A DNA stretch of 64,000 bases. It comes from Verrucomicrobiota bacterium (GTDB lineage Bacteria; Verrucomicrobiota; Verrucomicrobiia; Verrucomicrobiales; Akkermansiaceae). Each line of letters opens with the position of its first letter. Within the stretch, counting starts at the first letter, position 1. Below are positions 7,220 through 36,744 of the stretch, piece after piece. The stretch lies in contig RDYP01000005.1 in NCBI GenBank assembly GCA_004293445.1, positions 62,001-126,000 of the forward strand. Reading direction: 5' to 3'. The notes under the pieces are model-generated. The model was not told where the DNA came from and made no database searches. It saw only the letters and a program-made list of their open reading frames with translations. Made by a program: the position numbers and the translations under genes.

Positions 7220-8641
7220 TCATTCGCGCCTGCGGCGAAGAAGCGCGAGCAAGCCGAAGCCGCAGAGCAGGGCCACGCCCGGCTCGGGCACCGCCATCAG
7301 GGCGACGTCGTTGCCGCCGGTGAAGGTGTTGCCGGTCGAGTCCGCGGTGTAGCTGATCCGCCAGTCGAAGCCGTTGAAGGTGACCAGCCCGCCCTGAGCC
7401 AGGCCGCTGAAAGTGCCGCTGATCGCGTCGCTGCCGTCGTTGAGCAGAATGAAGAGCAGCTGGTCGTTGATCGGCGTATAAGCAACCGATGCCGCCAAGG
7501 CTCCGCTCAACGTCACGGTGCCAGTGACATTGATCTGGTCGTAGCCGCTACCGGCGGTGGTGCCGTTGAGTTCCAAGCTCAGGGTTCCGGCCTGGTTGTA
7601 GTTGCCGGTGTTCAGGATGCCGGGCGAATTGCCGGGAGCGAGGGTGCCGCCGGCTTCGATCGTGAGCGCGCCCACCGAGCCGGAGCCGCCGAGGACCGCG
7701 CCCGTCTTGACGGTGGTGAGGCTGCTGCTCGTGATGTTGCCGTTGATGAGGAGCGTGCCCTGGGTGACGGTGGTCGCGCCGGTGTAGGTGCTGGTGTTGG
7801 ACAGCGACAGCGTGCCCGCGCCGGACTTGGAGAGACCGCCGTCGGGAGTCGCGCCGAGCGCGGTGTCGTGCCGCAGGGCCTGGCCGATGGTGATGTCCTT
7901 GCCGTTGGTGTCGATCTTCGCGCCGCCGGCTTTGACGTAGGCGTTGCTGAGCCCGGTCATGAAGGCCGTCGCCGCGCCCGCGCCCGCCGTCAGCGTGCCG
8001 CCGTTGAAATTGAAGGTCGTGTTCGAGTTGGCGGTGACGCCCGAGTTGTCGACATCGACGATCTGATTGGCCGTGAGGGTTCCTCCGTCGAGATTCACCA
8101 CCGTGGTGGCCGCGGACAACTGCAGGGTGGTGACCGTCGCGGAGCCACTGCCGCCGATGGTGAAGGTGCTGGTTCCGCCTCCGGAGTTCAGGCCGACGAT
8201 CGTCCCGGCAGCGCTGCCGATGAAGGCTCCGGTGCCCGACACGGTGAGGATGCCGGTGGCGTTGTTGCCGATGATATCGCTCTGGGCGGAGCCGAGCGTG
8301 GAAAAGCTGCCGCCGGTGATTTCCATCGATCCAGCGATGCCCCCCGTGGCGCTGCTGATCACGAGGCCGCGACCAGTGATGTTGGCGTAAACGGTGGTCC
8401 CTTGGCTTGTGGTGTAGACGAGGGCTTGGCCGGCTCCGTTGTAAACGTTGAGCCGGGAATCGGTCGAATTTCCCGACGCCCCGGTACCCGGGGAAGCGCT
8501 CCAATTGGAACCAGTCGCCCAGGCCGTGCTGGTGGTGCCGTTCCACTGGTAGGTGTTCAGCGCGGCGCTTGCGGAGTCGACTCCCCCGGCGAGAGCGAGC
8601 GTGGCGCCGGCGAGAAGGGACGGATTGGGTTTGAGCTTCAT
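7220..8641 (-). CDS. PEP-CTERM sorted autotransporter-associated beta-strand repeat protein
   Basis: This 473-residue exported protein has an N-terminal signal peptide (MKLKPNPSLLAGATLALAGG). A Ser/Thr/Gly-rich body carries autotransporter-associated beta-strand repeats (SKSGAGTLSLSNTSTYTGAT followed by TQGTLLINGNI), ending in a region with GGTLAPGNSPGILNTG. The last residues form a canonical PEP-CTERM signal: VPEPG, a hydrophobic stretch and an RRRRE tail. In known systems this is recognised by an exosortase and yields surface or exopolysaccharide-associated proteins; no exosortase gene lies in the window. The gene is 31 bp downstream of a paralogue (8673-10250) with the same N-terminal two thirds but a different C-terminus. 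It is probably a structural or adhesive surface protein. Confidence 0.85.
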   Translation of the reverse strand: MKLKPNPSLLAGATLALAGGVDSASAALNTYQWNGTTSTAWATGSNWSASPGTGASGNSTDSRLNVYNGAGQALVYTTSQGTTVYANITGRGLVISSATGGIAGSMEITGGSFSTLGSAQSDIIGNNATGILTVSGTGAFIGSAAGTIVGLNSGGGTSTFTIGGSGSATVTTLQLSAATTVVNLDGGTLTANQIVDVDNSGVTANSNTTFNFNGGTLTAGAGAATAFMTGLSNAYVKAGGAKIDTNGKDITIGQALRHDTALGATPDGGLSKSGAGTLSLSNTSTYTGATTVTQGTLLINGNITSSSLTTVKTGAVLGGSGSVGALTIEAGGTLAPGNSPGILNTGNYNQAGTLSLELNGTTAGSGYDQINVTGTVTLSGALAASVAYTPINDQLLFILLNDGSDAISGTFSGLAQGGLVTFNGFDWRISYTADSTGNTFTGGNDVALMAVPEPGVALLCGFGLLALLRRRRE

Positions 8642-8672
8642 GGACGACGGGAAGGCTGAAATTTCGGGTGGA

Positions 8673-10250
8673 TCAGTTGGCGCGCACCTGGACGAAGAGC
8701 TTCGCGGGCAAGGGGCTACCAGCGAGGGCGGAGAGGGTGACCTCGACGGTTTCGACCTCGCCGACCAGTGCGGGCGCGCCTTCGGCGGCTCCCGTGTCCC
8801 GGGTCCAGTTGATCAGGTCTTCGGAAAACCAGACCGAGTAGGCCAGGTCGGTCAGGCCGGTGTCGCGGCGGGTGTAGCTGAACTTGCCGGTGGCCTTGTC
8901 GAGCGGGCTGGAGATCGGATTGGCCGAGGACCCGCCGGTGGGATCGAGGCCGAAGGCGTATTCCTCGAAGTTGCTGAGGCCGTCGTTGTCGTCGTCGTCG
9001 TTCTCTCTACCGAGGACGCCGTTGGCCGTGGTCCAGTCGTCGTAGTCGCTGCCGATGTCGAGGGTGAGTTCGCCGGTGGCCTCGGAGAACGACCAGTCGC
9101 CCTTCGCATCGCTCATGACCCAAGTGCCGTCGTTCTCGGGATCGGTGAAGCCGATCACGCTGAAGGTGGCGTCGTCGAAAGACTCGCCGGTGAGCGCCGC
9201 GCGGTCTACGAGCAGCCAGATGTGGCCGGTGGTGCCGGAGACGGCGGTGGTGTCGATGCCGAATTCGCCATTGAAGACGGCGGTGCCGGAGCCGGAGACC
9301 TGGTTGGCGGCAGGGGCGTCGGTGACGACGAATCGCAGGCGCGACCCTGCGGCGAGCACTAGGCTGCCGTTGGAGACCGTGGTGTCGCCGGTGTAGGTGT
9401 TAATGCCCGAAAGCGTCAGGGTGCCCGCACCGGACTTGGTCAGGCCGCCGCTGGCGCCGGTGGTCGGCGCGAGCAAGGCCTGGCCGATGGTGATGTCCTT
9501 GCCGTTGGTATCGATGAATGCGCCGCCCGCGAGGACGCCGGCGCGAGACAAGCCGCTCATGAAGGCGGTGACCGCGCCGCTCCCCGCGGTCAGGGTGCCG
9601 CCGTTGAAGTTGAAGGTGGTGTCCGAATTGCCCGGCGCTCCCTGGTTATCGATGTCCACGATCTGGTTGGCAACGAGGCTGCCGCCGTCCAGGTTCACCG
9701 TCGCCCGGTAGCCCGCCATTTTCAGCGTGGTGAAGGTCGCGCTGCCGGCACCGGACAGGCCTAGGACGCTCACGCCGCTGATGTTTTGGGAGTTCAGGCC
9801 GAGGAAGGAGCCCGGGGCCGCGCCGGTGAAGGATCCGCCGGTGATCGTCAGGGTGCCGGCGGCCGCGTTGCCGATCACGTCGTCCGAAGCCGAGCCGAGC
9901 GTGGAGAAGCTCCCGCCGGTGATCGTCAGCGTGCCTGCCACCGCGTTCGTCGCGTTGCTGATCACCAAGCCGCGGCCGTTCGTGTTCGCATAGACGGTGC
10001 TTCCCTCGCTCGCGGAGTAGACGAGAGCCTGGCCCGTTCCGTTGTAAACACTGAGCCGCGAGTCCGAGGAAGACGCCGTCACTCCGACGCCCGGCGGGGT
10101 CGTCCAGTTGGTGGCGGTCGCCCACGCCGTATCGGTGGTGCCGTTCCATTGGTAGGTGTTGACCGCCGCCGCCGCGTGATGGGTGGCCCCGGCAAGCGCG
10201 AGCGTGACGGTGAGGAGATGGCGGAATTGATAACGGGAGCGGGGTTTCAC
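8673..10250 (-). CDS. Autotransporter-associated beta-strand repeat protein with calcium-loop C-terminal tail (paralogue of the PEP-CTERM gene)
   Basis: This 525-residue exported protein shares its N-terminal two thirds with the downstream gene: VNTYQWNGTTDTAWATATNW against LNTYQWNGTTSTAWATGSNW, and IDTNGKDITIGQAL in both. It lacks the PEP-CTERM motif. Instead it ends in a DDDNDGLSNFEEYAFGLDP calcium-type loop followed by a beta domain (WFSEDLINWTRDTGAAEG) of the kind seen at the ends of other secreted proteins here. The signal peptide covers roughly residues 1-28. It is the first gene after the response regulator, with a 219-bp gap that includes a tandem operator-like repeat, so it is a candidate target of that regulator. 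Its role is probably structural, at the cell surface. Confidence 0.8.
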   Translation of the reverse strand: MKPRSRYQFRHLLTVTLALAGATHHAAAAVNTYQWNGTTDTAWATATNWTTPPGVGVTASSSDSRLSVYNGTGQALVYSASEGSTVYANTNGRGLVISNATNAVAGTLTITGGSFSTLGSASDDVIGNAAAGTLTITGGSFTGAAPGSFLGLNSQNISGVSVLGLSGAGSATFTTLKMAGYRATVNLDGGSLVANQIVDIDNQGAPGNSDTTFNFNGGTLTAGSGAVTAFMSGLSRAGVLAGGAFIDTNGKDITIGQALLAPTTGASGGLTKSGAGTLTLSGINTYTGDTTVSNGSLVLAAGSRLRFVVTDAPAANQVSGSGTAVFNGEFGIDTTAVSGTTGHIWLLVDRAALTGESFDDATFSVIGFTDPENDGTWVMSDAKGDWSFSEATGELTLDIGSDYDDWTTANGVLGRENDDDDNDGLSNFEEYAFGLDPTGGSSANPISSPLDKATGKFSYTRRDTGLTDLAYSVWFSEDLINWTRDTGAAEGAPALVGEVETVEVTLSALAGSPLPAKLFVQVRAN

Positions 10251-10469: not shown

Positions 10470-11126
10470 TCAATCCCCGCGGAACTTGGCCACGGCCTGT
10501 GCGCGGCTGCGGACTTGCAGCTTCTCGTAGATGTGGCGGATGTGGTTGTGCACCGTGTGCCAGCTGACCTTCATCTCTTCGGCGATCTCCTTGTAGAGGT
10601 ATCCCTGGGACAGGAACTCGAGGACCGTGCGTTCGCGGTCGGTGAGCGGCAGCATGGCGGCGGCGGCCGGACCCGCGGCCGGACGGGTTCTGAAGGATTG
10701 CACCACCTTGCGGGCGATCGCGGCCGACATCGGCGAGCCGCCGGCCACGACCTCGCGCACCGAGGCGACCAGGGCGTCGGCGTGGACCGGCTTGTGGAGG
10801 TAGCCGCAGGCGCCGGCCTGGAGCGAGTCGAAGACCGCGTCGATGTTGCTGCGGATGGTGAGCATCACGATCAGGGTCCGCGGCAGGAGTTCCGCAAAGC
10901 GGCGCACGCATTCCACCCCGCTGATGCCGGGCAGGTTGATGTCCATGAAGACGACGTCCGGCTTCGCCGCGGGCAGCGCCGCAAGCGCCTCTTCCCCGCT
11001 GGCACAGACCGCGACGCAGGCCATGCCATCCGTCGAGTCGAGGATGGAGCCCAAGGAGTCGCGGAGGTCGGCTGCGTCCTCGACGACCGCCACGCGGGTG
11101 ATCTTCCGGGTTGTTTTGGCGCTCAT
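10470..11126 (-). CDS. NarL/LuxR-family response regulator
   Basis: This 218-residue protein has an N-terminal receiver domain: VAVVEDAADLRDS supplies the acidic pocket, VVFMDINLPG carries the phospho-accepting Asp, and YLHKPV holds the conserved Lys. The C-terminal LuxR-type helix-turn-helix (LTDRERTVLEFLSQGYLYKE, then KVSWHTVHNHIRHIYEKL) would bind DNA. ATG at 11126 is chosen because it overlaps the kinase stop as ATGA, typical of translational coupling; the longer upstream reading is just the kinase gene in another frame. It is the cognate partner of the upstream hybrid kinase. Likely targets are the glycan-related genes around it, notably the beta-strand-repeat genes downstream, but this is inferred from position only. 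Confidence 0.92.
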   Translation of the reverse strand: MSAKTTRKITRVAVVEDAADLRDSLGSILDSTDGMACVAVCASGEEALAALPAAKPDVVFMDINLPGISGVECVRRFAELLPRTLIVMLTIRSNIDAVFDSLQAGACGYLHKPVHADALVASVREVVAGGSPMSAAIARKVVQSFRTRPAAGPAAAAMLPLTDRERTVLEFLSQGYLYKEIAEEMKVSWHTVHNHIRHIYEKLQVRSRAQAVAKFRGD

Positions 11127-13942
11127 GATTCGGCGGGGGAATCCAGTTCCTTCAGGGGCACGGTGAAGCGAACGACGGTTCCGCGGCCGTTCTTTCCCGG
11201 AAGGGTTTCGCAGGCACCTTGGATGCGAAGCATCCGGTCCGCCATGTTCGAAATTCCGTCTTCGCCTCGCCTGGGGGAAGCGCGGGGCCCGACACCGCGG
11301 CCGTCGTCCTCGATCTCGACAACGAGCGCGTGGCCGGGCATGCGGATCCGCAGGATCACGCGGGTGGCTCCGGCGTGGCGGACCACGTTGTGCAGGGCCT
11401 CCTTGGCGGCGAGGAAGAGGTTGTGTCGCACGGCCGATCCCACGGCGAGGTCGGGCAGGTGCTCCGGAATGTCGAACCGCAAGCGGAGGTCCGCCGCTTC
11501 GAGGAAGCCCTGGGCGTGGCTTCCCAGGTACTGGACCAGCTGCTCCAAGGTGTCGTTGCCGGGATTGGTGGCCCAGACGACGGAGTCGAGCTCGCCGGCC
11601 AGATGGTGGGCGCTGGCGACGATCCGGTTGAGCTGCTGGCGCGCGACGGGTGCCAGGCCGGGTTCGCGCGAGGTCATCTCCGCCACTAGCGCGATCTGGG
11701 TAAGATCCGCGCTCATGCCGTCGTGCAGGTCGCGCGAGATGCGGGACCTCTCCTCGTCGAGCGCCAGGCGTCGCGCGAGCCGCAGCGAGACCAGATAGCG
11801 CCAAGCGGCTGTTAGAAAGGCGGCGATCAAGAGCGCGATCAGCGCCCAGAACCACCCCTGGCGGGTGACGGGCAGCTGGATGTCGAGCTCGATCCGCTGG
11901 GCGACACCGCGCTGGCGCTCGTTCACGCGGATGCGCCAAACGTTCTCGCCGGCTTGGTCGATGGCGCTCACCACGAGGCCGCTGGCCGAACGCATCACCG
12001 GCAGGTAGCGGCTGTAGACGAAGAGATCGCCCGCGCGGGCGCCGGCGTCGCTGAGGGCGATGCTCATCGACGCGGGGCTGCTGCGGATCGACTCGATCTC
12101 CGCGGCACCGCAGTAGATGTGGAGATTCGATCCGATCAGCACGGGCGCGGAATTCGATGGCAGCGGCGTGAAGCGGAGGTGCTGGGAAGCCGCGGGCGCG
12201 AGGGCCGGGGTGGTCCAGGATTTCTGGGCCAGGCCGAGGTAGCGGTTGTCCCAGAAGGACCAGACGGCGTAGCGGCGCTCCGGGTCCATGCCGGCCTTCT
12301 TGAAGGAGAGCGGGATGGCCTGTTCCTTGTCCTCAGAATTCCACAGCAGGGCCACGGTCGCGTCGCCCCACTCGCGGCGGACCTGGCCGACGAGGCGCGG
12401 CCAACGCCAGTCGCCGCCGAGGTCGAGGACCTCGGTCCGTTCGCGGGCCGGCGGGGTCATGACCTCGAGGTTGCGCCAGTAGGGTTCGACCGAGGGCAGG
12501 TTCAGGGGATCGGAGGTGAAGGCCGCGCCGCAGGACAGGCCGGCCATGCTCATCCAGGTCCGCACCACCGGCCAGCCGCCGACAATCTCGCTGACGTTGG
12601 CGAGATCGGTGCCGAGGTAGAAGTGGTCGTTGTCGATGGCGAACCAGCGGCCGTGGAGATGGTAGGAGCGCAGGACCTCGGGGATCGCGGGGACGACATC
12701 CTTGCGGGAAGCGGTGCGTCCGCTGCGCGCCGCATCCACATGGCCGACCGCCGCGCGATCGAGCGAAAGCGGGCAATCCAGCAGGTAGGTGTCCGGCCCC
12801 GCCGTCTCGCGGAAGGCGGCGTAAAGGCGGCGGATGCGCTCGAACTCCGTGAGCTTCGGATCGGGCCGCGCTTGGGCGGGCCGGAAGTCGCCGAGCTTGA
12901 GGTAGCGGAAGCCGTCGCGCACCGCCTGGCGGACGACCTGCACGGGATCGGCCGCCTGGTTGAGCTCCAGCCGGATGCCGGGCCGCGCGCCGGTCGCCGC
13001 GATCGCTTTCGCGCAGAATCCGGGGCCTTCGGGGAACTGCGTCCGCACCTCGTGGCCCTTGTCGATCAGGACCACGTCCGGCCGCAGGCGGTCGCGATGC
13101 CGGCTCACGGTGTCCAGCTGGGCGAGCAGGTCCTTGCTGGTGATCTTGTCGCCGAAGGAATACCAGCTCCCCCACCCCGTCAGCGCCGGACGGTTCGCGC
13201 GGGCGTGGTGGGATTGTCCGACCCAGCCGGCCCAGCGCGGGAGCGCGGCGCGGGACGGCTCCACCAGCAGCGTCACCTGCTGGCCCCAGCGGGTTTCGCC
13301 GGGATCGACCCGCACACCGCTCATCTCGGCGGAGAGGTTGAAGAACATCCGGTCCTTCCCCGAGCGGGCGAAGTGCCCGGCGATGTAGGCGACCGGCTCC
13401 CCGACCGGGCCGAACAGAAAGCCGCGCTCGCCGCCGTGGTAGCAGCCGCCGTATTCGTGGACCTTAAGCGGCTGGTGGATGTACCGCAAGCCCTGCACCA
13501 GTGGAGCCCGCGGGTGGAAACCGGTGAGCAGCCAGCCGTTCAAATCCGTCGGTAACTTCCATTCAGCCGCCACCGGGCTGAGGTGCAGCAGCTTGACAGG
13601 AGTGCTGCCCGTATTGCGGATCCCGGCGCGCGCGAAGACGGCCGGAGCATCGCTGCTGACCTCGAGTTCGAAGAGGAGCTCGACCTTGTCCTCCGGGAAG
13701 TGGATGACCCTTGCGGAACCAGATTCAACCTCACCGCCGCTGGACTTCAACTGGCGGATCTCTCCGTCCTCGCGCTGGATGTCGGCCGACCAGGTGGCGC
13801 GGAAGTCATCGAAGCCCGACACGGAAAGCGTGAAAGAGCGACCGTCCTCCGCCATCCGCGCGACCGGCTCCGCGCCCGGAGTCACCGGCGACAGACAGGC
13901 GACGAGCAGCGGGATCAGCAGGGATGGAAGGCGGGCGGACAT
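11123..13942 (-). CDS. Hybrid sensor: GH36-like alpha-galactosidase-type domain fused to a HisKA_3 histidine kinase
   Basis: This protein has 939 residues. After a signal peptide (MSARLPSLLIPLLVACLS) comes a region of about 650 residues that resembles clan GH-D alpha-galactosidases: a beta-sandwich-like N-terminal part, a barrel-like part with LTGWGSWYSFGDKIT, FRYLKLGDF near residue 350 where the family has its nucleophile strand, and a Cys-Pro followed by VGHVDAARSG near residue 400 where it has the acid/base Asp. One transmembrane helix (WFWALIALLIAAFLTAAWRY, about 696-716) leads into the kinase: phospho-acceptor SRISRDLHDGMSADL near 738, an N-box region AAKEALHNVVRHAG, and G-boxes EDDGRGVG and NGRGTVVRF. 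It would sense a galactoside, or its hydrolysis, outside the membrane and phosphorylate the overlapping regulator. Whether the barrel is catalytic is open, because the nucleophile motif is shifted (KLGD rather than KLD). Domain identity is by motif only. Confidence 0.8.
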   Translation of the reverse strand: MSARLPSLLIPLLVACLSPVTPGAEPVARMAEDGRSFTLSVSGFDDFRATWSADIQREDGEIRQLKSSGGEVESGSARVIHFPEDKVELLFELEVSSDAPAVFARAGIRNTGSTPVKLLHLSPVAAEWKLPTDLNGWLLTGFHPRAPLVQGLRYIHQPLKVHEYGGCYHGGERGFLFGPVGEPVAYIAGHFARSGKDRMFFNLSAEMSGVRVDPGETRWGQQVTLLVEPSRAALPRWAGWVGQSHHARANRPALTGWGSWYSFGDKITSKDLLAQLDTVSRHRDRLRPDVVLIDKGHEVRTQFPEGPGFCAKAIAATGARPGIRLELNQAADPVQVVRQAVRDGFRYLKLGDFRPAQARPDPKLTEFERIRRLYAAFRETAGPDTYLLDCPLSLDRAAVGHVDAARSGRTASRKDVVPAIPEVLRSYHLHGRWFAIDNDHFYLGTDLANVSEIVGGWPVVRTWMSMAGLSCGAAFTSDPLNLPSVEPYWRNLEVMTPPARERTEVLDLGGDWRWPRLVGQVRREWGDATVALLWNSEDKEQAIPLSFKKAGMDPERRYAVWSFWDNRYLGLAQKSWTTPALAPAASQHLRFTPLPSNSAPVLIGSNLHIYCGAAEIESIRSSPASMSIALSDAGARAGDLFVYSRYLPVMRSASGLVVSAIDQAGENVWRIRVNERQRGVAQRIELDIQLPVTRQGWFWALIALLIAAFLTAAWRYLVSLRLARRLALDEERSRISRDLHDGMSADLTQIALVAEMTSREPGLAPVARQQLNRIVASAHHLAGELDSVVWATNPGNDTLEQLVQYLGSHAQGFLEAADLRLRFDIPEHLPDLAVGSAVRHNLFLAAKEALHNVVRHAGATRVILRIRMPGHALVVEIEDDGRGVGPRASPRRGEDGISNMADRMLRIQGACETLPGKNGRGTVVRFTVPLKELDSPAES

Positions 13943-13982: not shown

Positions 13983-15230
13983 TCAGCGTGCCTGATAGAT
14001 GCGGACGTGGTCGACTTCCATCGCGGTGCCATCGATCGCGTCGCTGATTTTGCCGCCCCAGCCAATGATGGCGAGGCTGAGCCAGACCGGGGCGGGGCTG
14101 TGGCAGAACTCGTTCTTTTCGCGGCGGAGCTCTTTGCCGTTGAAGTAGAAGACCAGTTCCTTCTCGGTCCAGTGGAGGCCGTAGGTGTGGAAGTCGCGGG
14201 CGAAGTTGTATCGTCCGTCGACGAGGTCGAACTTCGCGAGTTCAACCCACTTGCCCCCGTCGTGGTACTCGACGCGGTAGTTGTCCATCATCCCCTGCCA
14301 GCTTCCTTTGTCCGGCCAGCCATTGAGGAACTGGACGCAGCCGACCACACGCTCGGCGGGGAAGGTGAACTCGAGCGACTTGGCACCATCGATCTGGCTG
14401 ACCCAACGGCGGACCGGATCGCCGTCGGCGACCAGGCGCGAGGTATCGGAGCCGGACTTGTGAGAACCGCTGGCACGGATCGTCGTGCCGGTTTCGCGGG
14501 CGAAGTTGACCAAGCCGGGTTTGTCGGTGTCGGCCGACTTCGAGAAGGGATCCGGATAGCCGGCGGCGTTCGCATTGTAGATGCGGAATTCGCCGAGATG
14601 GAAGTGGCTGCGGTGGGTCGACGTGAGGCGGACGCGACGGGTGCTAACGGGGTTCTCGAGCTGGATCGTAACGTCGGGCCGCACGCCGAAGGCGAAGCTT
14701 TTCGAGGAGGTGGGATGAGTCCAGCGGCCGTTCTTTTGAAAGTGATCGGAGTGGTTGTGGATGTTGGTGTTGATCTCGTTCGGGAAGTGACCCTCGTTGA
14801 TGTCGATCTCGAAGTGCTTCTTTCCCGGCGGTGCCTTGTCGGTGGGCATGATCCAGAACGAGTTGTTGGTGGCCTCCGCGGCGGCGTAGCGGTAGCGGCA
14901 CTCGAAGTAGCCGTATTGGAATTTCTTGCGGGTCCAGATGTTGCCGGAGGTCCAGTCGTTGCCGCCGCGTTTTTCTTTTTTGTTGAGAAGCTTGAGGGTG
15001 CCGTTGGAGACGACGGCGTTCTCGCGCCAGCGACTGCTGAGGATGTGGGTGCTGCCCGAGTTCTGGGATTGCCAGCGTTCCTCGAGCTTGGCGTCGGGGC
15101 CGTCGAACTCCTCGCTCCAGGCAAGTTTCCACGCGGCCGCACCACCGGGAAGAAGCGAGCCGGGCGCGGGCGGCGCGGCCTGTAGGGCATGTGCAAGGAA
15201 GGCGGCGAGGATCAGGGGTCGGGTGGTCAT
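13983..15230 (-). CDS. Secreted GH16 glycoside hydrolase with an inserted F5/8 (discoidin)-like domain
   Basis: This 415-residue protein has an N-terminal signal peptide (MTTRPLILAAFLAHALQA). The GH16 jelly roll starts at WKLAWSEEFDGPDAKLEERW and includes GNIWTRKKFQYGYFECRYRY and the catalytic FEIDINEGHF (ExDxxE type, Glu nucleophile and Glu acid/base, near residue 140). The fold resumes only near residue 345 with FHTYGLHWTEKELVFYFNG and ends with VDHVRIYQAR. About residues 180-340 in between look like a galactose-binding or discoidin domain (VRLTSTHRSHFHLGEFRIYN, then LVADGDPVRRWVS and YRVEYHDGGKWVEL). GH16 enzymes cut beta-1,3 or beta-1,4 glucans and galactans in the periplasm or outside; the exact substrate cannot be read. 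It lies 40 bp upstream of the sensor kinase gene in the same direction. Confidence 0.85.
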   Translation of the reverse strand: MTTRPLILAAFLAHALQAAPPAPGSLLPGGAAAWKLAWSEEFDGPDAKLEERWQSQNSGSTHILSSRWRENAVVSNGTLKLLNKKEKRGGNDWTSGNIWTRKKFQYGYFECRYRYAAAEATNNSFWIMPTDKAPPGKKHFEIDINEGHFPNEINTNIHNHSDHFQKNGRWTHPTSSKSFAFGVRPDVTIQLENPVSTRRVRLTSTHRSHFHLGEFRIYNANAAGYPDPFSKSADTDKPGLVNFARETGTTIRASGSHKSGSDTSRLVADGDPVRRWVSQIDGAKSLEFTFPAERVVGCVQFLNGWPDKGSWQGMMDNYRVEYHDGGKWVELAKFDLVDGRYNFARDFHTYGLHWTEKELVFYFNGKELRREKNEFCHSPAPVWLSLAIIGWGGKISDAIDGTAMEVDHVRIYQAR

Positions 15231-15296: not shown

Positions 15297-17378
15297 TCAG
15301 GGGCTGACACGGACGCGAATGAAGCGTTTCCCACCGCCTGGGAATGCTTGTCGGTCGCGGAAGGTCACTTGTTCGAAGTCGGCGCTCAGGCTCGTCGGCG
15401 CGCCGGTTTGGAGGGTATCGGCGGTCCAAGTAGAGAGATCGGAGGACACCTCGACCAGGTAGCGGAGTTTCGCGTGCTTGCGGCGGGGGAAGGTGATGGC
15501 GAGATGTTCGGTGGCGGCACTCGTGATGCGGCTGGCAGCGATGGGACGTGGACCGGCGGCTTGGGGATCGGTGCCCAGCGCGAACTCCATCAGATTGGAA
15601 TCGCCATCGCGATCGGGGTCCGCGGCATCGGCCGCAGCGTCGGCGACGCTGGCAGAGCCGAAATGGAGAATACGCCAGGACTCGGCGAGCGGGAGCTGCT
15701 TGATGGCATCGAACCACGCCGCGGCGATCGCATTGTAACCCGGACCGGTGGGATGGACGCCGTCGCCGCCGATCAGGGTGGCCTGGTTGTCGGGTGTGAT
15801 CTTTTGCCGGACATCGTTGAACCTCACACGATGGCCCCGGGACTGGTAGCTGGCGACGAGGTCCGGCAGCATTTGATTGAAGGCCTGGTTGTTCGCCTCG
15901 CGTTGCGAGTAGTCCTTCACGGGATTGGTGCCGACGAAGTCGTTCCCGGTGTAGGGCGGCACCGAGCTGCAAACGATCAAGGCGTTCGGCCGGATCGCGA
16001 CGAGCTTGGCGAGCAGGAGGTCGTAGTAAGCGCGGACCTGAACCGGCGTACGCTGGAACATACCCAGGTCGTTGGTCCCGATCATTAGCAGAATCAGATC
16101 GGGAAATACGGCGGGGCGGCTGCCGGTGCCGGTGAGCCAGTAGCCGCCTTCGTTGGTGTTCGGCGGCGTGCCATAGGGCAGAGTGACAGGATCGAGCAAT
16201 CCGTCGAGGTTCCCGGTGAGCAGCGTGGTGGCGTAGCTGCCGTGGCCTTCGTGGTGGATCTCGCCGGCGGCCACAAGGGTCGACGAGGTGCCGTTGCTAC
16301 GAGATCCGACGTAGTCGATCGCCAATCCGGCGTTGGCCAGCGAGAGGTGGAGCGGCGAGCGGTAGCCGCCGATGCCGCCGGCGCCCTCGGTGATCGAATC
16401 GCCGAGCGGCATGATGACGAGTGGCGAAGGGGCGACCACCGCGGGAACCGCCACCGGATTGGAAAGCCGCGACGCCGAGGTGCCGCCGCCTGTTAGGCCG
16501 GCGGAGATCCGGTAGGTATGGCTGGTGCCGGGCGCCATCCCATGATCCCGGATCGAGGTGACGCCCGCCGCGGTGGTGATGACGCTTTCCCAGACACCCG
16601 ACCCGGTGACGGCGCGTTCGATCAAGAACCCGGTTTCATCGGGCAATGTTTCCGTCCATCCGAGGGCGGTTTCGTACGGGCTGACAGCGGTGGCGGTGAA
16701 GCCGGTGATCTCTGGCGCGGCGGGCGGCGCGACCTGGAAGGCGAGCGTGATGTTGTCGATGTCGAGGTAGTCGGTGGCGGTGGTCTGGCTGTCCCGGATG
16801 AAGGGCAGGAAAAAGGTGATCGTGCAGTTCGTCAGCCCGTCGTGGTCGCCGTTGTTCGAGTTGGAGCCGTTGGTGGGATTGGAATCCGGCGTGGCGAGGC
16901 TGACCGACATGGTGCCGGAGTCCGCGCCGTTGGCGACGCGGCCAAGCGTGCCGATGGTGTCGTCGGTCGGATTGGCGGAACCTTTGACGCTACTGAAAAC
17001 GCGGGCGTTGAGGTACTCGGTGCCGCTGATGCCGCCGGAGCTGAAGTCGAGCGCCAGCGATCCCAAGTTGAGAACGACGCCCGCGGGGATGGTGAGGCTG
17101 AAGGATAGAACCGGCCCCGCTAGCGCGGTGGTGCTGGAAGTGACGACGTCGCCGCGTGACAGGCGGAGCGAATGGCCGCTGCCGCCGTTGTCGCTGAGGG
17201 CGGCGAAGGTGAGGGTGCCGAGCGAGAAATTCGAAACGTTCACCCCGGCCGGCAGACCGCTGACGGTGGGAGCCATGCTCCCGCCGGTGAACTCGTAACG
17301 AACCGTCTGACTGCTGGCGGCGGACGCGAGGAGCAGCGACGCGAAGGCGAAGGTGGAGATAGTGGATTTCATGTTCAT
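15297..17378 (-). CDS. Secreted SGNH/GDSL esterase with fibronectin III-like domain and C-terminal tail
   Basis: This protein of about 693 residues has a signal peptide (MKSTISTFAFASLLLASAAS) and an N-terminal beta domain. A fibronectin type III-like segment follows (PEITGFTATAVSPYETALGW). Next is an SGNH hydrolase: block I MPLGDSITEG near residue 326 with the Ser nucleophile, block III IGTNDLG near 430, and block V DGVHPTG near 540 with the Asp-x-x-His pair. Such enzymes often remove acetyl groups from plant polysaccharides (CE3-like). A DPDRDGDSNLMEFALGTDP calcium-type loop and a beta tail end the protein. ATG at 17378 is chosen: it overlaps the upstream stop as TGATG, suggesting translational coupling; TTG at 17381 and ATG at 17372 are alternatives. 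It shares its tail type with the two giant proteins upstream. Confidence 0.85.
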   Translation of the reverse strand: MNMKSTISTFAFASLLLASAASSQTVRYEFTGGSMAPTVSGLPAGVNVSNFSLGTLTFAALSDNGGSGHSLRLSRGDVVTSSTTALAGPVLSFSLTIPAGVVLNLGSLALDFSSGGISGTEYLNARVFSSVKGSANPTDDTIGTLGRVANGADSGTMSVSLATPDSNPTNGSNSNNGDHDGLTNCTITFFLPFIRDSQTTATDYLDIDNITLAFQVAPPAAPEITGFTATAVSPYETALGWTETLPDETGFLIERAVTGSGVWESVITTAAGVTSIRDHGMAPGTSHTYRISAGLTGGGTSASRLSNPVAVPAVVAPSPLVIMPLGDSITEGAGGIGGYRSPLHLSLANAGLAIDYVGSRSNGTSSTLVAAGEIHHEGHGSYATTLLTGNLDGLLDPVTLPYGTPPNTNEGGYWLTGTGSRPAVFPDLILLMIGTNDLGMFQRTPVQVRAYYDLLLAKLVAIRPNALIVCSSVPPYTGNDFVGTNPVKDYSQREANNQAFNQMLPDLVASYQSRGHRVRFNDVRQKITPDNQATLIGGDGVHPTGPGYNAIAAAWFDAIKQLPLAESWRILHFGSASVADAAADAADPDRDGDSNLMEFALGTDPQAAGPRPIAASRITSAATEHLAITFPRRKHAKLRYLVEVSSDLSTWTADTLQTGAPTSLSADFEQVTFRDRQAFPGGGKRFIRVRVSP

Positions 17379-20300
17379 CAAGGTCGCGCCACGCGCAGAC
17401 GGACGAAGCGCGAAGGCGAGGCAGAGGGCAAAGTGGCAAGAACGGATTGGGACGTGCCGTCATCGGTGCCGGCGACCGGTGCGTGCACAACATCGGCGGT
17501 GGACCAATCGTTGCCGAGCGTGTCGCTCCACTCGACGAGGAAGCGGACGCCATCGGCCACCGCGGCGTGGCTGCGACGATAGGTGAATTCGAGGGTGGAT
17601 CCGGAGCGGGTGAGAGCGGTGATGGATCCGTCCGGAGTTTCGGGAAGACGTCCGGTGGCGAATTCGAGAAGATTCGCAAGGCCATCGTGATCGGGATCGG
17701 CGAAGTCCGAAGCGGCGTTCGTGTCCGAAGTAGTTCCGAAGTGAATTTGCCGCCAGGCGTCGAGACCGGACGGGATGTGGATGGCGAGCGACCGGCCGGA
17801 CTCGCCGTTCGCATTCGCGGCGGAGAGGACAACCTGATAGGTGCCGGGCAGGGAAAAGGTCGCGGTGGTGGCGGGAGCGGACGCATTCGCGAAGCTCACC
17901 GCACCGGGGCCGGAACGCTTGGTCCAAACCGAAGCCGTGGCGTTCGAAACGCTGCCGACAAGACCGACTGGAATGCCGACGGATGGCGCGGGAGCAGGGC
18001 CGGGCGAGATGGTGGGAGTGAGATTCAGGGTGAAAAACACGTTCAATCGCGGGCGGTAGGATTCGACCGGATAGTCATCGGAGGCGAAGCGGGTGTAGAT
18101 GTTGGTGGCGGCATCCGATTCGGTCGCGGGGGCGAGGACGATCAGGTTCAACGGCGAGTTTCCGGCCAGCGAGGTGTTGAGGGCATTGAGCAGCGAAGCG
18201 GTAGGGCCGAAACTGCGCGGCACGCCGGGCGCGGTGGCATCGTAGCCGTTGAGAGTTGCCAGCGCAGTCGCATCGAAGTCACCGCCGGGCGAGGTCCATC
18301 GGTTGGTGAGATCGTAGAAGTCCCAGTTCGCACCGGTGTCGAGGCCGTGAGTGGATGAGGATCCGTCGCCGGTGCCTTCGATGAAGCCGCGGGCAAGACG
18401 GCGCAGGTGGAGGTTGCCGATCGTCCCCGAACCGGCGGCGGCGGGATGCGTCCAGAGATCGAGGCTCACCGCCGAGACCGGCCAAGTGCGGGGGACCGAC
18501 GAGAGATCGAAGGAGAGGATGGAACGCATGGCGGCGCCGGTTTTCCCGACGATCATCTGGTCGCGTGCCCCCGAGTTCCAATCGACGTTGTCCGCCCGGA
18601 TGATAGTGGCTTGATGGGTGTAACTGCCGACGCCCTCACGCAGGCTGAAGTCAGCCGGGGGTGCGGCATCGACGGCGATGTCGAGGAAGCCGGAGCCCAC
18701 CGGATTGGCGGCGGTCGCGCGGAGCACGTAACGGCCCGCCACGCTGAAAGTGACGAAGGTATCCGGCGAGGTGGGGTCGACGAAAGTCGCCTGGCCGGGG
18801 CCGCTGACCCTAGACCAGGACCAACTCATGCTTCCGCCGCCGCTGGCCGATGCAGCGACGCGCAAGGCGTGGTTCAGATCGACCGTCGCGGCAGGGCTCA
18901 CCGGCGGATGGACGCGGGAAACGAGCGGATCATCGAGCGATGGCAGGCCGTCGATGGGAGTCCAGACGACGAGGATGGCGGTGGCGGACTGCAGGAGGGC
19001 GAAGCTACCGAAAGCGGCGGCGCTTTGTCCGGCGGAATCCGGACCGACATGGCCGAGGGTGAAATTCCCGCTGATGCCCGCGGCGGGAGAGGACAGCAGG
19101 GTCCACGTGCGGGGCGAACGCCAGAAGAGATGCTGGAAGTTGACGTTCCCGCCGGGCGCGTTGAAGAGCAGATCGACCTTCGCACCGGAGGCGATCGCGA
19201 CCGGTCCTCCGTCGATGCGTCCCGAAGTACCCCATGCGTTTCCGGTGGTGCGCCAGACGAGGGTTGACGAGGCACCGAAGGAAATCGGCCCGGAGAAGGC
19301 GCTCAACTTCGGGACGAGCGCGCCTTGGATGGATCCGCTCGCGAAGGAGCCGTTGCCGGAAAAGATCGCGCCGTTCGCAACGGTCAGACCGCCGGAGCAG
19401 GTGGCTCCGCCGGTGACATCGATCCTGCCGGCATGGACCGTGATGCCGCCGCCGATGCTGTTGCCAGAGCCGGAGAGCGTCCAGGTGCCGGGCTCCTCCT
19501 TGGTCAGGCCCGCGAGCATGGCGCCGCCGCCGCCAGCGACGAGGTTGCCTGCGATCACACCATTGCCCGCACCGCGAAGGTCGAGCGTGCGCCCGGTGGT
19601 CGCGGGCGAAACATTTCCGGCGAGCGTGAGGGTTCCCGCCAACGAGGTGAAGCGGGCCGATCCCGAATTCGAGGTGAGCAGGATCGCGCCGTTGATCCGG
19701 TTTTCGCCGCCTTCGTTGACCAGCACGCCGTTCGGATTGCTGAGCTGGAAGGAGACGCCGGAGGGAATCGCCACGCCGCCGTCGAGCCGCAGGCTGCCGG
19801 TGACGCTGCTTTGGACGAAGACGTTCTTGGTGTTGCTTCCCAGCGCGTTCGAATGAGTGACGCGCAGGCCGCCGCCGCCGACGGTGACCGAGCCGAGAAA
19901 ACTGTTGTTTCCCGAGAGCGTGACGATGTCGTTCGCGCTCGGATTGTACACCGAGAGGCTGCCGCTGCCGCGGATGAGGCCCGGGATCGCGAGGTGGCCG
20001 CTGCGATCGATGCGCAGCACGCCGTCGAGATCCAGCGGTCCGCTGCCAATGGAACCGGTGGGGCCGTCGTCGCCGACACGCAGGGTTCCGGCCGGGACGA
20101 TCGTTCCGCCGGAATAGGTATTGTCGCCTGTTAGAACGCAGGTGCCGGCCTCGCCTTCGAAGGCCAGTCCGCCCGCACCGCTGATCGGACCGCTGAAGAC
20201 GAAGTCTCCGTCGCCGAGTCGAGTCACGCTGGTCATGGCGTCGAGCGCCAGCGGCGTGGCTACGGTCGTTTCGAAGTCCGCGCCGCCCGACTCGAGAGAG

Positions 20301-23300
20301 ATGCGTGGCGGGACGGAGCCGTTCCCTGTCAGGTGCAGGGGATTTCCCTCGATGCGGAAGCGGGTCGTGCCGGACGGATTGGAACCGGCGAGAACGAGTC
20401 GGTTGAGCAGGAAGCTTGCCGGGAGGTTGTTGTTCGACGTGAGGTCGGCCGTTGCGGTGGTGATGCCGGTGAGGAAATCGAGACGGCGGTTCGGCTGGCC
20501 CGTGGGAACCTGGTTGCCGGCCCAGTTCGCGGATTCGCTCCAGTAGCGGGGGGCGAGACCAGCGGTTTGGGTCCAGTTGATGCCGGGATAGTCGGCGGGG
20601 TCGTTCGGATCGGTCGCGGCCACGCGCTCGACGAGATTGGAATGGCCATCACCATCCGGGTCCGCGGAGTCGGCGGCGTCGCCACTGTTGGCAGTGGTGC
20701 CGAAGTTTTCGAAGCGCCAACCGTCGGCCGAGCCGAAGGGCAGCCAGATCAGGTTGATGGCAGTGCCGGTGTTCTCCACCGCGAAGGACCCGAAGCTTTC
20801 GTGCGAATTTCCCGCGGAATCGGCGCTCACCGAAAGGAGGGCGGGAGTTCCACTGATCGTGCCGGAACTGATGAGCGGGAAGACCCGCGTGGACGACCAG
20901 AAGGGATCGGTGAACAGGACCGACCCGGCGCTTTCCGTCATCTCGACCTCGAGACCGGCACCCGGCTGGATGGTGGCGCTGCCCGCCGTGACGAGAGGCG
21001 CGCCGTTGGTGCTGTTGGCGGCGAGGCTCCAGCGGAGGCGACCCATCGCGGTGAGCGTCAGGCCGCTGGTGAAGGTTAGGTTGCCGGTGGGTTCGAGCAC
21101 GCCGTTGAAGGAAGCGGGCGCGGCGATGCTGCCGTTGCCGGTCAGGCGGCCGGTGCTGTAAACCGAGAGCGAGGACGAACGGGTGATCGAGCCGGTGACA
21201 TCGAGCGTCCCGCCGCTGACGACCGTGCTGCCGCTGTAACTGTTGGTGCCGGCGAGCGTCTGGGTGGTGGAGCCGGATTTCACCAGGTTGAGTTTCCCGA
21301 GGGTGGCGAGCGCCGAAAGAGTGGAGTTGGTGTCCACGATGGCGCCCGCGAATTCGGCGGAATCCTGACGTTCACCGCCCTGAAGGGTGAGGGTCGCGGT
21401 GGTCGCGCTGGTGCTGCGTGAGAAGTTGCCGATCTGGCCGCCGCCGGACAGAGAGCCGACGGTGGCGTTGTAGGCGGTGGCGTCCTCGCAAAGGCCGAAG
21501 TAAGCGCCGGACTCGATCGTGAGATCAGGCAGTTTCGTGGCGTCGGTATTCGTGAGTGCGCCGGACAGCACGCCGATCACGCCGGGGCCGATCGTCAGGC
21601 CCGCGTTGTCGGCGAAGGCCGGGGAATTGTAGATGCGGAAGGAAACGAAATTCGAGGACAGCGAGGCATCGCGGACGACCCGCAGGTTTCCGTTCGCCAC
21701 GACGGAGGGCATCGAGGCGACGGTGCCGATGCCCCACGAGGTGTAGCTGCCCGATTGGATGGCGCTGCCGCTGTTGACCACCCGGGTGCAGGACACGGTG
21801 CGGGTGCCGCCGCCGAGATCCCAAGCGCCGGCGATCATCATGCGGCCGGCCGGCGCGAGCGTGAAATCGTCGTTCACAAAAATCTGCGGATTGGCGATGC
21901 CCGAGTTGAGGGCGAAGGCACCGGTGCTACCGATCACGCCGCCGTGGATGGTCAGCGGTCCCGTTCCGAGGGCGCTGGCGGTGGTGGTGGCGGCGGTGTT
22001 GCCTGTCAGCACGCGGCCGGTGGCATCGAGCACGAATCCTCCGCTGAAGGAATTCGTCCCGGTGAGGGCAACGCCGCGCCCGGCGGTCCCGGCGACGCGC
22101 AGTTCGGCCGCGCCCGAGATGTTGCCGCCGACGGTGATCTGGGTGGAAGCGGCCGCGCCGGAGGAACCGGTGGTCCATGTCTGATCGCCGGACAGAACGA
22201 CGGGCGCGCCGACCAAGAGGGTTTTGTTCGATGCCGAAAGATCGAGTCCGCCCGAGCCGAGCTCGAGCGCTCCGGCGCTACCCGGTGCAATGGCGACGTT
22301 GCCGCCCGGGTCGGCGAAGCGGATGCCAAGCAGGCTGATGCCGGTACCGATGGTGACGGAGTTGTCGCCGGTCACCGTGCCGTCCCAGACGGCGAGACCT
22401 CCGGCGGGCACGCTATTGTTGGTCCAACTGGCGGCGGAACTCAGGTCGGTGGCGTTGTTCGCTTTGGTCGACGAGGGCCCGGCGGTGGTGAAGGAGCGGG
22501 TGGAGGAAGCCCACGAGCCGCCCGCGCTGTTCGAGGCGTAGAAGCGGTAGTAATACTTCGTCTTCTGGGCCAAAGCGGAAACGGAAACCTCCAACTCGCC
22601 ACGGGTCTTGAACCCGAGGTTGAGATGGTTTTGCCAGTTGGCGGCGGTGGTGCCGCCATCGGTGGTGCCCCAATAGACCCGGACGGTGGAGTCGCGGTTG
22701 ATGTAGGGAAAGTCGAGGTGGCCTCTGAGCGTGGCGGAGGTCTGACTGATGTTCGAGGCTCCGCTCGGATTATCCACCACCGGCTTCCGGTTGGACGAAT
22801 TGAGGCGGGTTTCATCGCGATAGAGGCCGATCATTTCCACCGGGATCTCGCGGAACAGACTGAGATCCCGGTAGACCGCCGAGCTGGTTTTGAGGCGGTA
22901 GTCGTTGCCGCTGCGGCCGATGAAGCCGGGATCGACGGAATAGGTTTTGTTCGATCCGGTGGCGATGCCGCCGAAGGTCGTTTGGCCGAGAGCGGCGACA
23001 TTCGTCCGGAAGGCCGCCGGAGTTCCGCCGATGGAAGTGGCCGCCTTGCGGTTGTTGACGATCACGTTGTTCTCGAAGAATCCGCCGGTCCCGACGTTGC
23101 AGCTGAAGCCGCTGCGGATCGTTTCGATGATGTTGCCGAACATCCGGGAGCCCGCGCAGTAGAGGTCGACTTGGATGCCCGAGCCGCCGATCGAGTGATT
23201 CGGGAAATAGGTCTCCCAAGCGTAGGCTTTGTTGGTCATCTGGTTGTAGCGGATCGTGTCGTCCCCGCCGAGTCCGGTGAAACAATAGATCCCGCCCATG

Positions 23301-35127: not shown

Positions 35128-36744
35128 TCAGGGTTTCCCCTCTTGATAGAGGCGGGCGATTTCCTCGGGCGGGAGGGCACGGGAGAGAATCACCAACTCG
35201 TCGAGGGATCCGGTGAAATTCCGGAGATGCTCCGCGGGGACCTTGCCTGCGGCGGGCTTCGATCCGACCGGCCAATTGCCGAAGGCGTAGCCACCGAAAC
35301 TCACAGGAAGCTTCGCAGGAAAACTGCCGGAGCCGACGGGACAGCCATCGCGATAATGGACAACCTTGCCACTACGGGAATCGTAGGTGGCGGCAATGAA
35401 GATCCAACGGCCGAGGTCGGGCTCGGAGAGGGGCTGCGATTTCACCGGGCCCTCCCATCCGGAAGCGGTGGCGGGGTGGCCGATCCCATTGGTCAGGGCG
35501 AGTCGGACTTCGCCGCTGTCCTGAAGCAGCCACTGGAGGGCGGATTCGCGCCCAGTGTCAGGCATCAGCAGAACATTGTAGCGGTTCGGCAGGCCATCGA
35601 TCCGCAACCACGCGAGGCAGGTGGCGGAGGAGGAATCGCCGGCAAGCCCGAAGAGCAGGCGATCGCCGCGGCCACGAAACTCCAAGGCACGTTTTCCAGG
35701 CCAGCGGCCTGCGGTCCAGCGGGTGCCGACGAGCGCGCCGTGGGATCCGGGCCTGGCCTTCGCAGCATGATTGCGGACGGAACGACTGGTGTCGGTGGTT
35801 TCTTGAAAGGTGTAAGCCAGCAAGGTGGCGGGATCAGCCGCGAGTCGCTCGGCGGACTCCTGCCAGCGCATCACTCCGAGGCGTGCACCGTGGACGATGC
35901 GTTCGCGGAAGCGGGCCTCGGAGGGGAAGGCCTCGTCGGGCAGAGTCGCGGGGGCGAGCGAACCGGCTGAATCCGTGACCATCGAAGTCTCATCGCGCAA
36001 GTCGTGGATCGTGCCGTTCTGGTGGAGTTCGATCGCTCCTTGCAGGACTTTGACTGCGGATGCGCCGTCCTCGCCGACGACCAATCCGAAAGCCGTACCG
36101 GTATCGACAACACGCAACTTCGGGGTATCGACAACAAAGCCACGAGCGGGCGGTGGGACTTGGGCGCGGATCTTCCCGAAATGGCAGAACAATTCCATGC
36201 CGGAGACGACGTCCAACTCGGCGGGGCCCTCGAGCAGCAGGCGGGCACCGCTGGCAAACTCGATCGATGCCATGCCGGACTCCAAAGTGAGGCGGCCGGG
36301 TTGGAGAGAACTGCCCGGAGCGGGCTGGAGGCCTTGCCAAACCGCATCCGCGACCTCCTTGACGATCGCGACCGGTTCGGGCGAAAGCGGCGGCACCGAA
36401 GAAGGCCGCGGACCGCGCACGGGGTGAAGCCCGGCGAGAAAGGCTCCAACCATCAACGCCGCCGCGATTGGGATCCACAGAAAGGGCAGCTTGCGGTGAG
36501 GGGCGGGGAGACGGCGCGGGCGACTGGACGAGGGTTCGAGAATGGCGACGATGCCATCTTCCCGAAGGCGGTCGATCAGGGCCTGTTCGTCGACGAGCAG
36601 TCGCGCCATGATCGCGCGAGCGGCGGAGTCGCGGCGCAGCCAGTCGTTGAGGGCCGCGCGGGCCTGCGGATCGCCGTGGTCGCGGGCGGCGGAAAGGAGT
36701 TCGAGCAGGCGTGGCCCGATGTCGGACGGGGTGCTCGGCTTCAT
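35128..36744 (-). CDS. FecR-like anti-sigma/regulatory protein with C-terminal LamG domain
   Basis: This 538-residue single-pass membrane protein has a cytosolic N-terminal part of about 85 residues (likely sigma-binding, MKPSTPSDIGPRLLELLSAA). A transmembrane helix follows (FLWIPIAAALMVGAFLAGL, about 86-104). The FecR domain is periplasmic (LTLESGMASIEFASGARLLL, then FVVDTPKLRVVDTGTAFGLV). A LamG-type concanavalin-like domain forms the C-terminal 200 residues (FTGSLDELVILSRALPPEEI near the end). FecR proteins relay outer signals to an ECF sigma factor. The start overlaps the sigma factor stop by ATGA, so the two are coupled. The LamG domain suggests direct glycan sensing. This architecture is common in Planctomycetes and Verrucomicrobia. 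Confidence 0.9.
   Translation of the reverse strand: MKPSTPSDIGPRLLELLSAARDHGDPQARAALNDWLRRDSAARAIMARLLVDEQALIDRLREDGIVAILEPSSSRPRRLPAPHRKLPFLWIPIAAALMVGAFLAGLHPVRGPRPSSVPPLSPEPVAIVKEVADAVWQGLQPAPGSSLQPGRLTLESGMASIEFASGARLLLEGPAELDVVSGMELFCHFGKIRAQVPPPARGFVVDTPKLRVVDTGTAFGLVVGEDGASAVKVLQGAIELHQNGTIHDLRDETSMVTDSAGSLAPATLPDEAFPSEARFRERIVHGARLGVMRWQESAERLAADPATLLAYTFQETTDTSRSVRNHAAKARPGSHGALVGTRWTAGRWPGKRALEFRGRGDRLLFGLAGDSSSATCLAWLRIDGLPNRYNVLLMPDTGRESALQWLLQDSGEVRLALTNGIGHPATASGWEGPVKSQPLSEPDLGRWIFIAATYDSRSGKVVHYRDGCPVGSGSFPAKLPVSFGGYAFGNWPVGSKPAAGKVPAEHLRNFTGSLDELVILSRALPPEEIARLYQEGKP

Follow-up and report, generated by a model that had tools for sequence, protein, structure and literature searches.

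Histidine kinases with a GH36-type pseudo-glycosidase sensor half: a probable family of glycan receptors in Verrucomicrobiota

BlaR1/MecR1 provide an example of a beta-lactamase-like enzyme fold turned into a membrane receptor. The hybrid two-component systems of Bacteroides have sensors of Reg_prop/Y_Y_Y architecture, and glycan sensing by Verrucomicrobia, which are known glycan degraders, has to our knowledge been little studied. The general role of the Bacteroides systems is described as glycan sensing and regulation of glycan-use genes (PMC10766802). The nearest precedent for the system treated here is RsgI6 of Clostridium thermocellum, an anti-sigma factor in which an extracellular glycosidase-family domain is presented as a polysaccharide sensor; its GH10 domain is reported to have very low activity and to bind xylan and cellulose (PMC4711584). 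A gene for a 939-amino-acid histidine kinase is described here from a 64,000-nucleotide stretch of a Verrucomicrobiota genome of the Akkermansiaceae (contig RDYP01000005.1, positions 62,001 to 126,000). The whole stretch is termed the window, and its numbering is used throughout. Its likely role is that of a glycan receptor in a two-component system, with a GH36-type glycosidase that has lost catalysis as the sensor.

By analogy, the sensor would work like RsgI6, although the fold differs and the system is a two-component one. RsgI6 is a GH10, anti-sigma protein of a Gram-positive organism, whereas the window protein joins a GH36-type domain to a histidine kinase, is encoded beside a NarL-type regulator and belongs to a paralogous family with catalytic residues replaced. 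In this comparison, the loss of catalytic residues and the retention of contacts are read from alignments, and binding is predicted. As in the Bacteroides systems, the protein is a membrane histidine kinase with a putative role in glycan sensing, but its regulator is a separate NarL-type protein encoded by its own gene (10470–11126), and the sensor fold is unrelated: the 939-amino-acid protein gave no Pfam match to Reg_prop or Y_Y_Y up to E 1, and the sensor model has a GH36-type fold. BlaR1/MecR1 differ in sensing antibiotics by acylation, in having a protease output and in carrying no kinase. Titles and abstract beginnings in the open-access literature, a scope with subscription papers mostly outside it, yielded no account of a histidine kinase with a GH36 domain or of a glycosidase-kinase sensor.

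The kinase gene is a minus-strand open reading frame that runs from an ATG start at 13942 to 11123. Its parts are as follows.

11123–13942, minus strand: fusion gene, 939 amino acids, with a leader, a GH36-like pseudo-glycosidase sensor, a membrane helix and a HisKA_3 histidine kinase (open reading frame, Pfam, phmmer, structure model, Foldseek)
13871–13942, minus strand: signal-peptide-like region, residues 1–24, hydrophobic stretch at about residues 5–23 (sequence and hydropathy)
11873–13870, minus strand: predicted extracytoplasmic GH36-like domain, residues 25–690, with an N-terminal beta-sandwich, a barrel and a C-terminal beta region (AlphaFold2, Foldseek, VIA-align, profile matches)
11783–11860, minus strand: single strong predicted membrane helix, about residues 695–720 (hydropathy)
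11126–11797, minus strand: kinase half, HisKA_3 at residues 731–794 (phospho-acceptor His at about residue 740) and HATPase_c at residues 841–931 (Pfam)

The leader and the membrane segment are predicted features, called from hydropathy rather than by a dedicated signal-peptide or topology predictor. The two kinase domains, HisKA_3 with its H-box (33 bits against a cut-off of 24) and HATPase_c (29.7 bits against 26.4), both exceed the curated Pfam cut-offs and mark a sensor kinase of the HisKA_3 type. NCBIfam models for NarX, NarQ and UhpB also match the kinase region, far below their full-length cut-offs. Hydropathy and Pfam agree with a preliminary description of this DNA, which had placed a signal peptide, a transmembrane helix and a full HisKA_3 kinase in a single chain, the leader being predicted.

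No Pfam family was matched by sensor residues 25–690 in a search up to E 1. Melibiase_C is weakly matched by nine of 17 related sensors (best E 0.021), and phmmer pairs residues 225–323 of the window protein with the Thermotoga maritima GH36 alpha-galactosidase (TmGalA) chains 6gta, 1zy9 and 5m0x at E 2.2e-4 to 2.7e-4. A profile built from 17 relatives matches GH36 enzymes at E 5.3e-13 to 1.5e-12, among them 6lcj (5.3e-13) and 1zy9 (1.1e-12). An AlphaFold2 model of residues 25–704 has a mean predicted local distance difference test score (pLDDT) of 92.7 and a predicted TM-score (pTM) of 0.91; the input was a 40-row alignment of the window protein and public loci, two kinase-free rows included. 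With this model, Foldseek ranks TmGalA structures and a blood-group galactosaminidase at the top, at a query TM-score of about 0.5 and E values of 3.4e-23 (6gta), 1.6e-22 (9ayu) and 2.0e-22 (1zy9). The likeness to GH36 alpha-galactosidases extends, in VIA-align, over 429 residues of TmGalA 1zy9 (Z 23.9, root-mean-square deviation (rmsd) 2.7) and 385 residues of TtGalA 6lcj (Z 24.4, rmsd 2.9), and an Arabidopsis alkaline alpha-galactosidase covers model residues 1–664 (564 aligned, rmsd 3.7, Z 21.5). The predicted model displays the N-terminal beta-sandwich, the barrel and the C-terminal beta domain of GH36 enzymes. The sensor half is therefore predicted, with near certainty, to have a GH36-type fold. 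This is in line with the earlier proposal of a glycosidase fold as the sensor half of this kinase, for which structure prediction of the N-terminal part had been suggested as a check; a GH36-type barrel fold was returned, not an unrelated one, in a confident model with which Foldseek and profile matches agree. A GH27 identity was rejected: a rice GH27 enzyme scores a higher Z of 27.6, yet spans about 323 residues (model 223–570), and sequence profiles favour GH36. Chance resemblance to GH36 was ruled out, since fold, profile and Foldseek agree.

The catalytic pair of TmGalA is given as Asp327, the nucleophile, and Asp387, the acid/base (PMC5132143). In the numbering of 1zy9 (chain position minus 12, as counted from printed alignments), the Asp residues of FKIDF, RIGPD and VDGMR are D327, D387 and D380, respectively. 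Residues were paired by MAFFT over 59 sequences and by hhalign of 40 sensor-type against 12 enzyme rows, and the two alignments agree. Both catalytic Asp residues are replaced in the window protein, G351 standing opposite D327 and T410 opposite D387. The codons concerned, placed by these alignments, are:

12890–12892, minus strand: G351, at the GH36 nucleophile place (TmGalA D327)
12713–12715, minus strand: T410, at the GH36 acid/base place (TmGalA D387)
12734–12736, minus strand: D403 (TmGalA D380), the Asp called the acid/base in the preliminary description

The motifs FRYLKLGDF and VGHVDAARSG, to which that description had drawn attention, are present in the 939-amino-acid protein. An alteration of the nucleophile strand had been noted correctly, as shown by G351 at the D327 place; hhalign sets the next residue, D352, opposite Phe and not opposite the nucleophile. 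The acid/base Asp had been thought to be kept, and this was mistaken: the Asp of VGHVDAARSG is D403, which aligns with D380, and the true acid/base place is occupied by T410. Asp at the D380 position is present in all 45 kinase-type and all 14 kinase-free rows of the family alignment; Asn is found there in three of 12 further kinase-free rows (L114, L115 and L118, all of genus g142), which keep both catalytic Asp residues.

Across the family, none of the 45 kinase-type rows has both catalytic Asp residues: 33 have neither, nine the acid/base only and three the nucleophile only. Each of the two is present in all 14 kinase-free relatives. Two wider searches added further relatives without a kinase, and the pair is complete in 12 of the 12 that reach the sites; a thirteenth row, L147, is cut off before the sites and was not counted, and one of the 12, L139, has a stop after them. 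All 26 kinase-free frames (14 + 12) end at a stop codon and none has a kinase match, the long tail of L062 being an NPCBM domain. Judged from the alignments, the sensor of the window protein is very probably not a working hydrolase. The earlier suggestion that it might bind, and perhaps cut, a galactoside becomes 'bind, very probably not cut', since both catalytic residues are replaced and no fusion has the pair; the revised reading extends to every sampled member. As the fold is present and both catalytic features are missing, the domain does not belong among the GH36 enzymes in a classification.

The residues that contact the ligand in TmGalA are listed as Arg383, Lys325, Tyr191, Asp220, Asp221, Trp257 and Trp190; K325, R383 and D220 hold the C2–C4 hydroxyls and D221 contacts the C6 hydroxyl (PMC5132143). 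Most hydroxyl-binding residues are kept family-wide. Among the 45 kinase-type rows, K325 is found in 42, R383 in 42, D220 in 37 and W190 in 34; mostly lost are Y191 (16/45), D221 (5/45) and W257 (0/45). The eight nearest enzymes share 106 invariant columns, of which 53 are conserved at 90% or more in 42 fusions and 17 at less than 50%. Among these 17 are five of the nine catalytic or ligand residues of TmGalA, compared with 12 of 97 other enzyme-invariant columns (Fisher p 0.005, a guide, as columns and rows are not independent). The pocket is also remodelled in length. From the W257 position to Lys325 there are 25–40 residues in 44 fusions and 64–76 in 14 enzymes, with no overlap, and this barrel loop (the beta3–beta4 stretch) is about half as long in the fusions as in the enzymes. 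The window protein thus differs from TmGalA and TtGalA in the missing catalytic pair, in a beta3–beta4 stretch about half that of related enzymes and in the added helix and kinase. The retained contacts suggest, at good though not high confidence, that the sensor domain would bind a carbohydrate.

Four kinase-free Verrucomicrobial proteins stand near the fusions. L103 shares 43% and L094 41% identity with the window protein over nearly the whole sensor, and L049 and L050 are 42% and 41% identical over residues ~128–662 of the query domain. These four differ from the fusions in having no kinase, both catalytic Asp residues and the long loop, and are putative enzymes. L049 (7989–10760, minus strand) and L050 (6261–9080, plus strand) come from genomes G171 and G013, which also hold kinase fusions, and L050 carries an inserted NPCBM domain. 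For L050 and L103 the best NCBIfam match, to a model of beta-L-arabinopyranosidase, is weak and falls far short of the cut-off; the substrate may therefore not be galactose.

In a 56-row tree, rooted at the midpoint with the root falling among enzymes, the fusions form one clade: 42 fusion rows lie on one side of a branch with support 100/99. They share one origin, and row counts are not counts of independent events. The nearest lines outside the clade are L094/L103, then L049/L050. The nucleophile column, itself among those used to build the tree, shows at least 17 state changes. In six pairs, the ratio of nonsynonymous to synonymous substitution rates (dN/dS; Nei-Gojobori) is 0.12–0.29 for the sensor and 0.09–0.21 for the kinase half, with some dS values near or above 1. 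The sensor is under purifying selection in the six pairs tested.

A survey of Verrucomicrobiota for the same fusion, proposed in the preliminary description, found it to be recurrent, with 45 kinase-type rows. Three fusion copies are present in the host genome. Matches occur in 21 of 195 genomes of the taxonomic family at E 1e-5 (single-sequence search), a count that includes the host genome and some kinase-free matches; in a profile search at E 1e-40 they occur in 18 of 386 genomes of the order and 12 of 387 of the phylum, host and kinase-free matches again included. The distribution is patchy. Several genomes have several paralogues, and genome G165 has six distinct match places. Forty-three public loci were matched; two of them, L094 and L103, have no kinase, L101 breaks off before the kinase and L107 is a fragment of the C-terminal part; the public contigs were scanned with two short patterns, by which distant relatives could be missed. 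The named rows belong to Verrucomicrobiota, one labelled Kiritimatiellia excepted from the general run, and several records carry no taxon below 'bacterium'. The three host copies, with the matches in 21 of 195 family genomes and at 43 public loci, rule out a one-off chimera or assembly artefact.

The counts are defined as follows. Left out are L034 and L036–L048 (the same contigs obtained via two collections), L051, the fragment L107, and L056 and L060, which are near twins of counted enzymes and have both Asp residues; L064, L065 and other weak partial matches from family genomes are not in the alignment. The truncated rows L105, L102 and L089 are within the 45 rows and outside the tree and the 42-row conservation counts, and L105 is also outside the 44-row loop count. 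L101 was counted as kinase-type from its place in the tree, and L035 and L066_9302, close paralogues of one genome, were both counted. In L051 (7139–9500, minus strand), sensor and kinase lie in different frames, from a frameshift or an assembly error.

Around the kinase gene in the window, the following genes are found by Pfam matches.

10470–11126, minus strand: NarL/LuxR-type response regulator, 218 amino acids, overlapping the end of the kinase gene by 4 bases (Response_reg 1.5e-25, GerE 8.3e-18)
13983–15230, minus strand: protein with GH16 and F5/8 type C domains, 40 bases upstream of the kinase gene
15297–17381, minus strand: GDSL esterase-like protein
17378–25144, minus strand: giant protein of 2588 amino acids with PATR repeats, beta-helix and PKD domains
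8673–10250, minus strand: PATR-repeat protein, downstream of the response regulator
7220–8641, minus strand: PATR-repeat protein with a PEP-CTERM-like end (below the Pfam PEP-CTERM cut-off)

The genes from 25144 down to 7220 are all on one strand, with 4-base overlaps or gaps of at most 219 bases; from strand and spacing, the run looks like one or a few operons. The Response_reg and GerE gene adjoins the kinase gene, and phosphotransfer to its product is putative. Immediately downstream of the fusion, 38 of 44 fetched rows carry a response regulator related to that of the window, and the other six end at a contig edge. The copies in the host genome adjoin different enzymes: GH16 and GDSL proteins in the window, a GH29 fucosidase at L032 and a GH78 rhamnosidase at L033. 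Neighbours scanned were 61 chosen open reading frames, in sets of nine (five from the host genome) and 52, ten of the 52 being rescanned singly. Among the matches listed for the 52 (25 of 61 families), GH43, GH95, GH29, GH2, GH106, GH99, sulfatases and SASA esterases are represented by 1–3 proteins each. PATR proteins number eight of the 52, again among the matches listed, and five of the nine. Large PATR-repeat proteins recur beside the receptor kinases, at 7220–10250 and 17378–25144 of the window and at L032, L033, L078 and L084.

It is proposed that a glycan or oligosaccharide is bound, but not cut, by the loop-shortened, remodelled pocket on the outer side of the inner membrane. The ligand would be seated in the former active site, and the signal would travel along the membrane-proximal beta region and then the helix, changing autophosphorylation of the conserved His (about H740). 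The phosphoryl group would then pass to the NarL-type regulator encoded next to the kinase and lead to a transcription response, in which that regulator may control the neighbouring genes for secreted proteins and glycosidases; that the system regulates its own neighbourhood is favoured, with less assurance than the binding of a carbohydrate. Each paralogue probably reads a different glycan, given the different pocket residues and the different adjoining glycosidases. More tentatively, with a little less than an even chance, the family may represent receptor kinases derived from one dead GH36-type enzyme and then multiplied, with diversification at the former active site, so that paralogues each read a different glycan and control a matching glycosidase cluster. 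It would then be a Verrucomicrobiota counterpart, independent in origin, to the Bacteroides hybrid sensors, with a glycosidase pocket acting as a receptor that can evolve. One fusion clade, several paralogues per genome, replaced catalytic residues and mostly retained hydroxyl contacts look like a natural conversion of enzyme to receptor. As a receptor class the family is concrete: solved structures can serve as templates, the pocket is defined and the regulators lie beside candidate target genes, which allows ligands to be proposed and tested for each copy in turn. For annotation, relatives of the fused GH36-like domain should not count as active alpha-galactosidases.

Several observations weigh against a dead glycan receptor. 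Twelve of the 45 kinase-type rows still keep one catalytic Asp, and a glycosidase without one carboxylate can retain some activity. A bifunctional enzyme-sensor, in which the domain still hydrolyses an alpha-galactoside and the kinase signals hydrolysis or binding, would fit the GH36 fold and the several sugar contacts kept, and D352, one residue past the nucleophile position, is usable in principle. Use of D352 as a stand-in nucleophile is unlikely, as hhalign too sets G351 at that position; the window protein has G and T at the two catalytic places in both alignments, on which ground an active bifunctional enzyme was rejected, no fusion has the pair, and W257 and D221 are also lost. This explanation is judged very improbable. 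The scattered loss of catalytic residues could instead mark a decaying domain. In a second alternative, the GH36-like domain serves as an inert spacer or as a folding module, and the signal is read elsewhere, by the membrane helix or as envelope stress. The nucleophile column, which varies in many directions, agrees with such an idea, but the sensor dN/dS values, the conservation of half of the enzyme-invariant columns at 90% or more, the retention of sugar contacts with loss of catalytic residues, the several paralogues in several genomes and the presence of its own regulator for each row with room make it improbable, if a little less so than continued hydrolysis.

The nature of the ligand is a further point. 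The window protein has lost W257 and D221, both replaced, so by its sequence the ligand could be something other than a galactoside and perhaps not a pyranoside at all, and residue positions in the pocket rest on alignments and not on model coordinates. Some neighbours have no evident glycan link (an AcrB-type transporter, a fatty-acid desaturase, a rubber-oxygenase-like protein and an HlyD-type protein), many others are PATR proteins, and the carbohydrate-active neighbours are counts among the 61 chosen open reading frames, not to be read as an enrichment. The pocket might instead serve a new purpose, the binding of a non-carbohydrate ligand or of a protein, such as an adjoining PATR/PEP-CTERM surface protein; the shortened loop, the lost W257 and D221 and the frequency of PATR proteins among scanned neighbours, two of them downstream in the window, are consistent with this. 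Nevertheless, K325, R383 and D220 are kept in most fusions, and the neighbours include several glycosidases, sulfatases or esterases of carbohydrates. A repurposed pocket is considered unlikely, although it is the least improbable of the three alternatives, and a dead GH36-type glycosidase acting as a glycan receptor is preferred.

The closest kinase outside the family in the host genome, L163 (3551–5728, plus strand, contig C27), has 725 amino acids and a kinase half 42% identical to that of the window protein. Its sensor of ~500 residues differs from the GH36-like sensor and gave no Pfam match. The regulator of this system is 61% identical to that of the window, and the kinase gene lies between genes for a GH78 protein and a DUF5703 protein. 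As the kinase half and the regulator are related and the sensor is different, one kinase chassis seems, from these sequences, to carry different sensors near glycan genes. In another genome, a neighbouring kinase (L040, 15431–17881) showed no glycosidase sensor, and nothing outside the kinase part, in a sequence search. Elsewhere in the window, at 35128–36744 on the minus strand, a FecR domain is fused to a LamG/concanavalin-like domain in a gene that adjoins an open reading frame of 3303 amino acids; its product is possibly another surface-sensing regulator.

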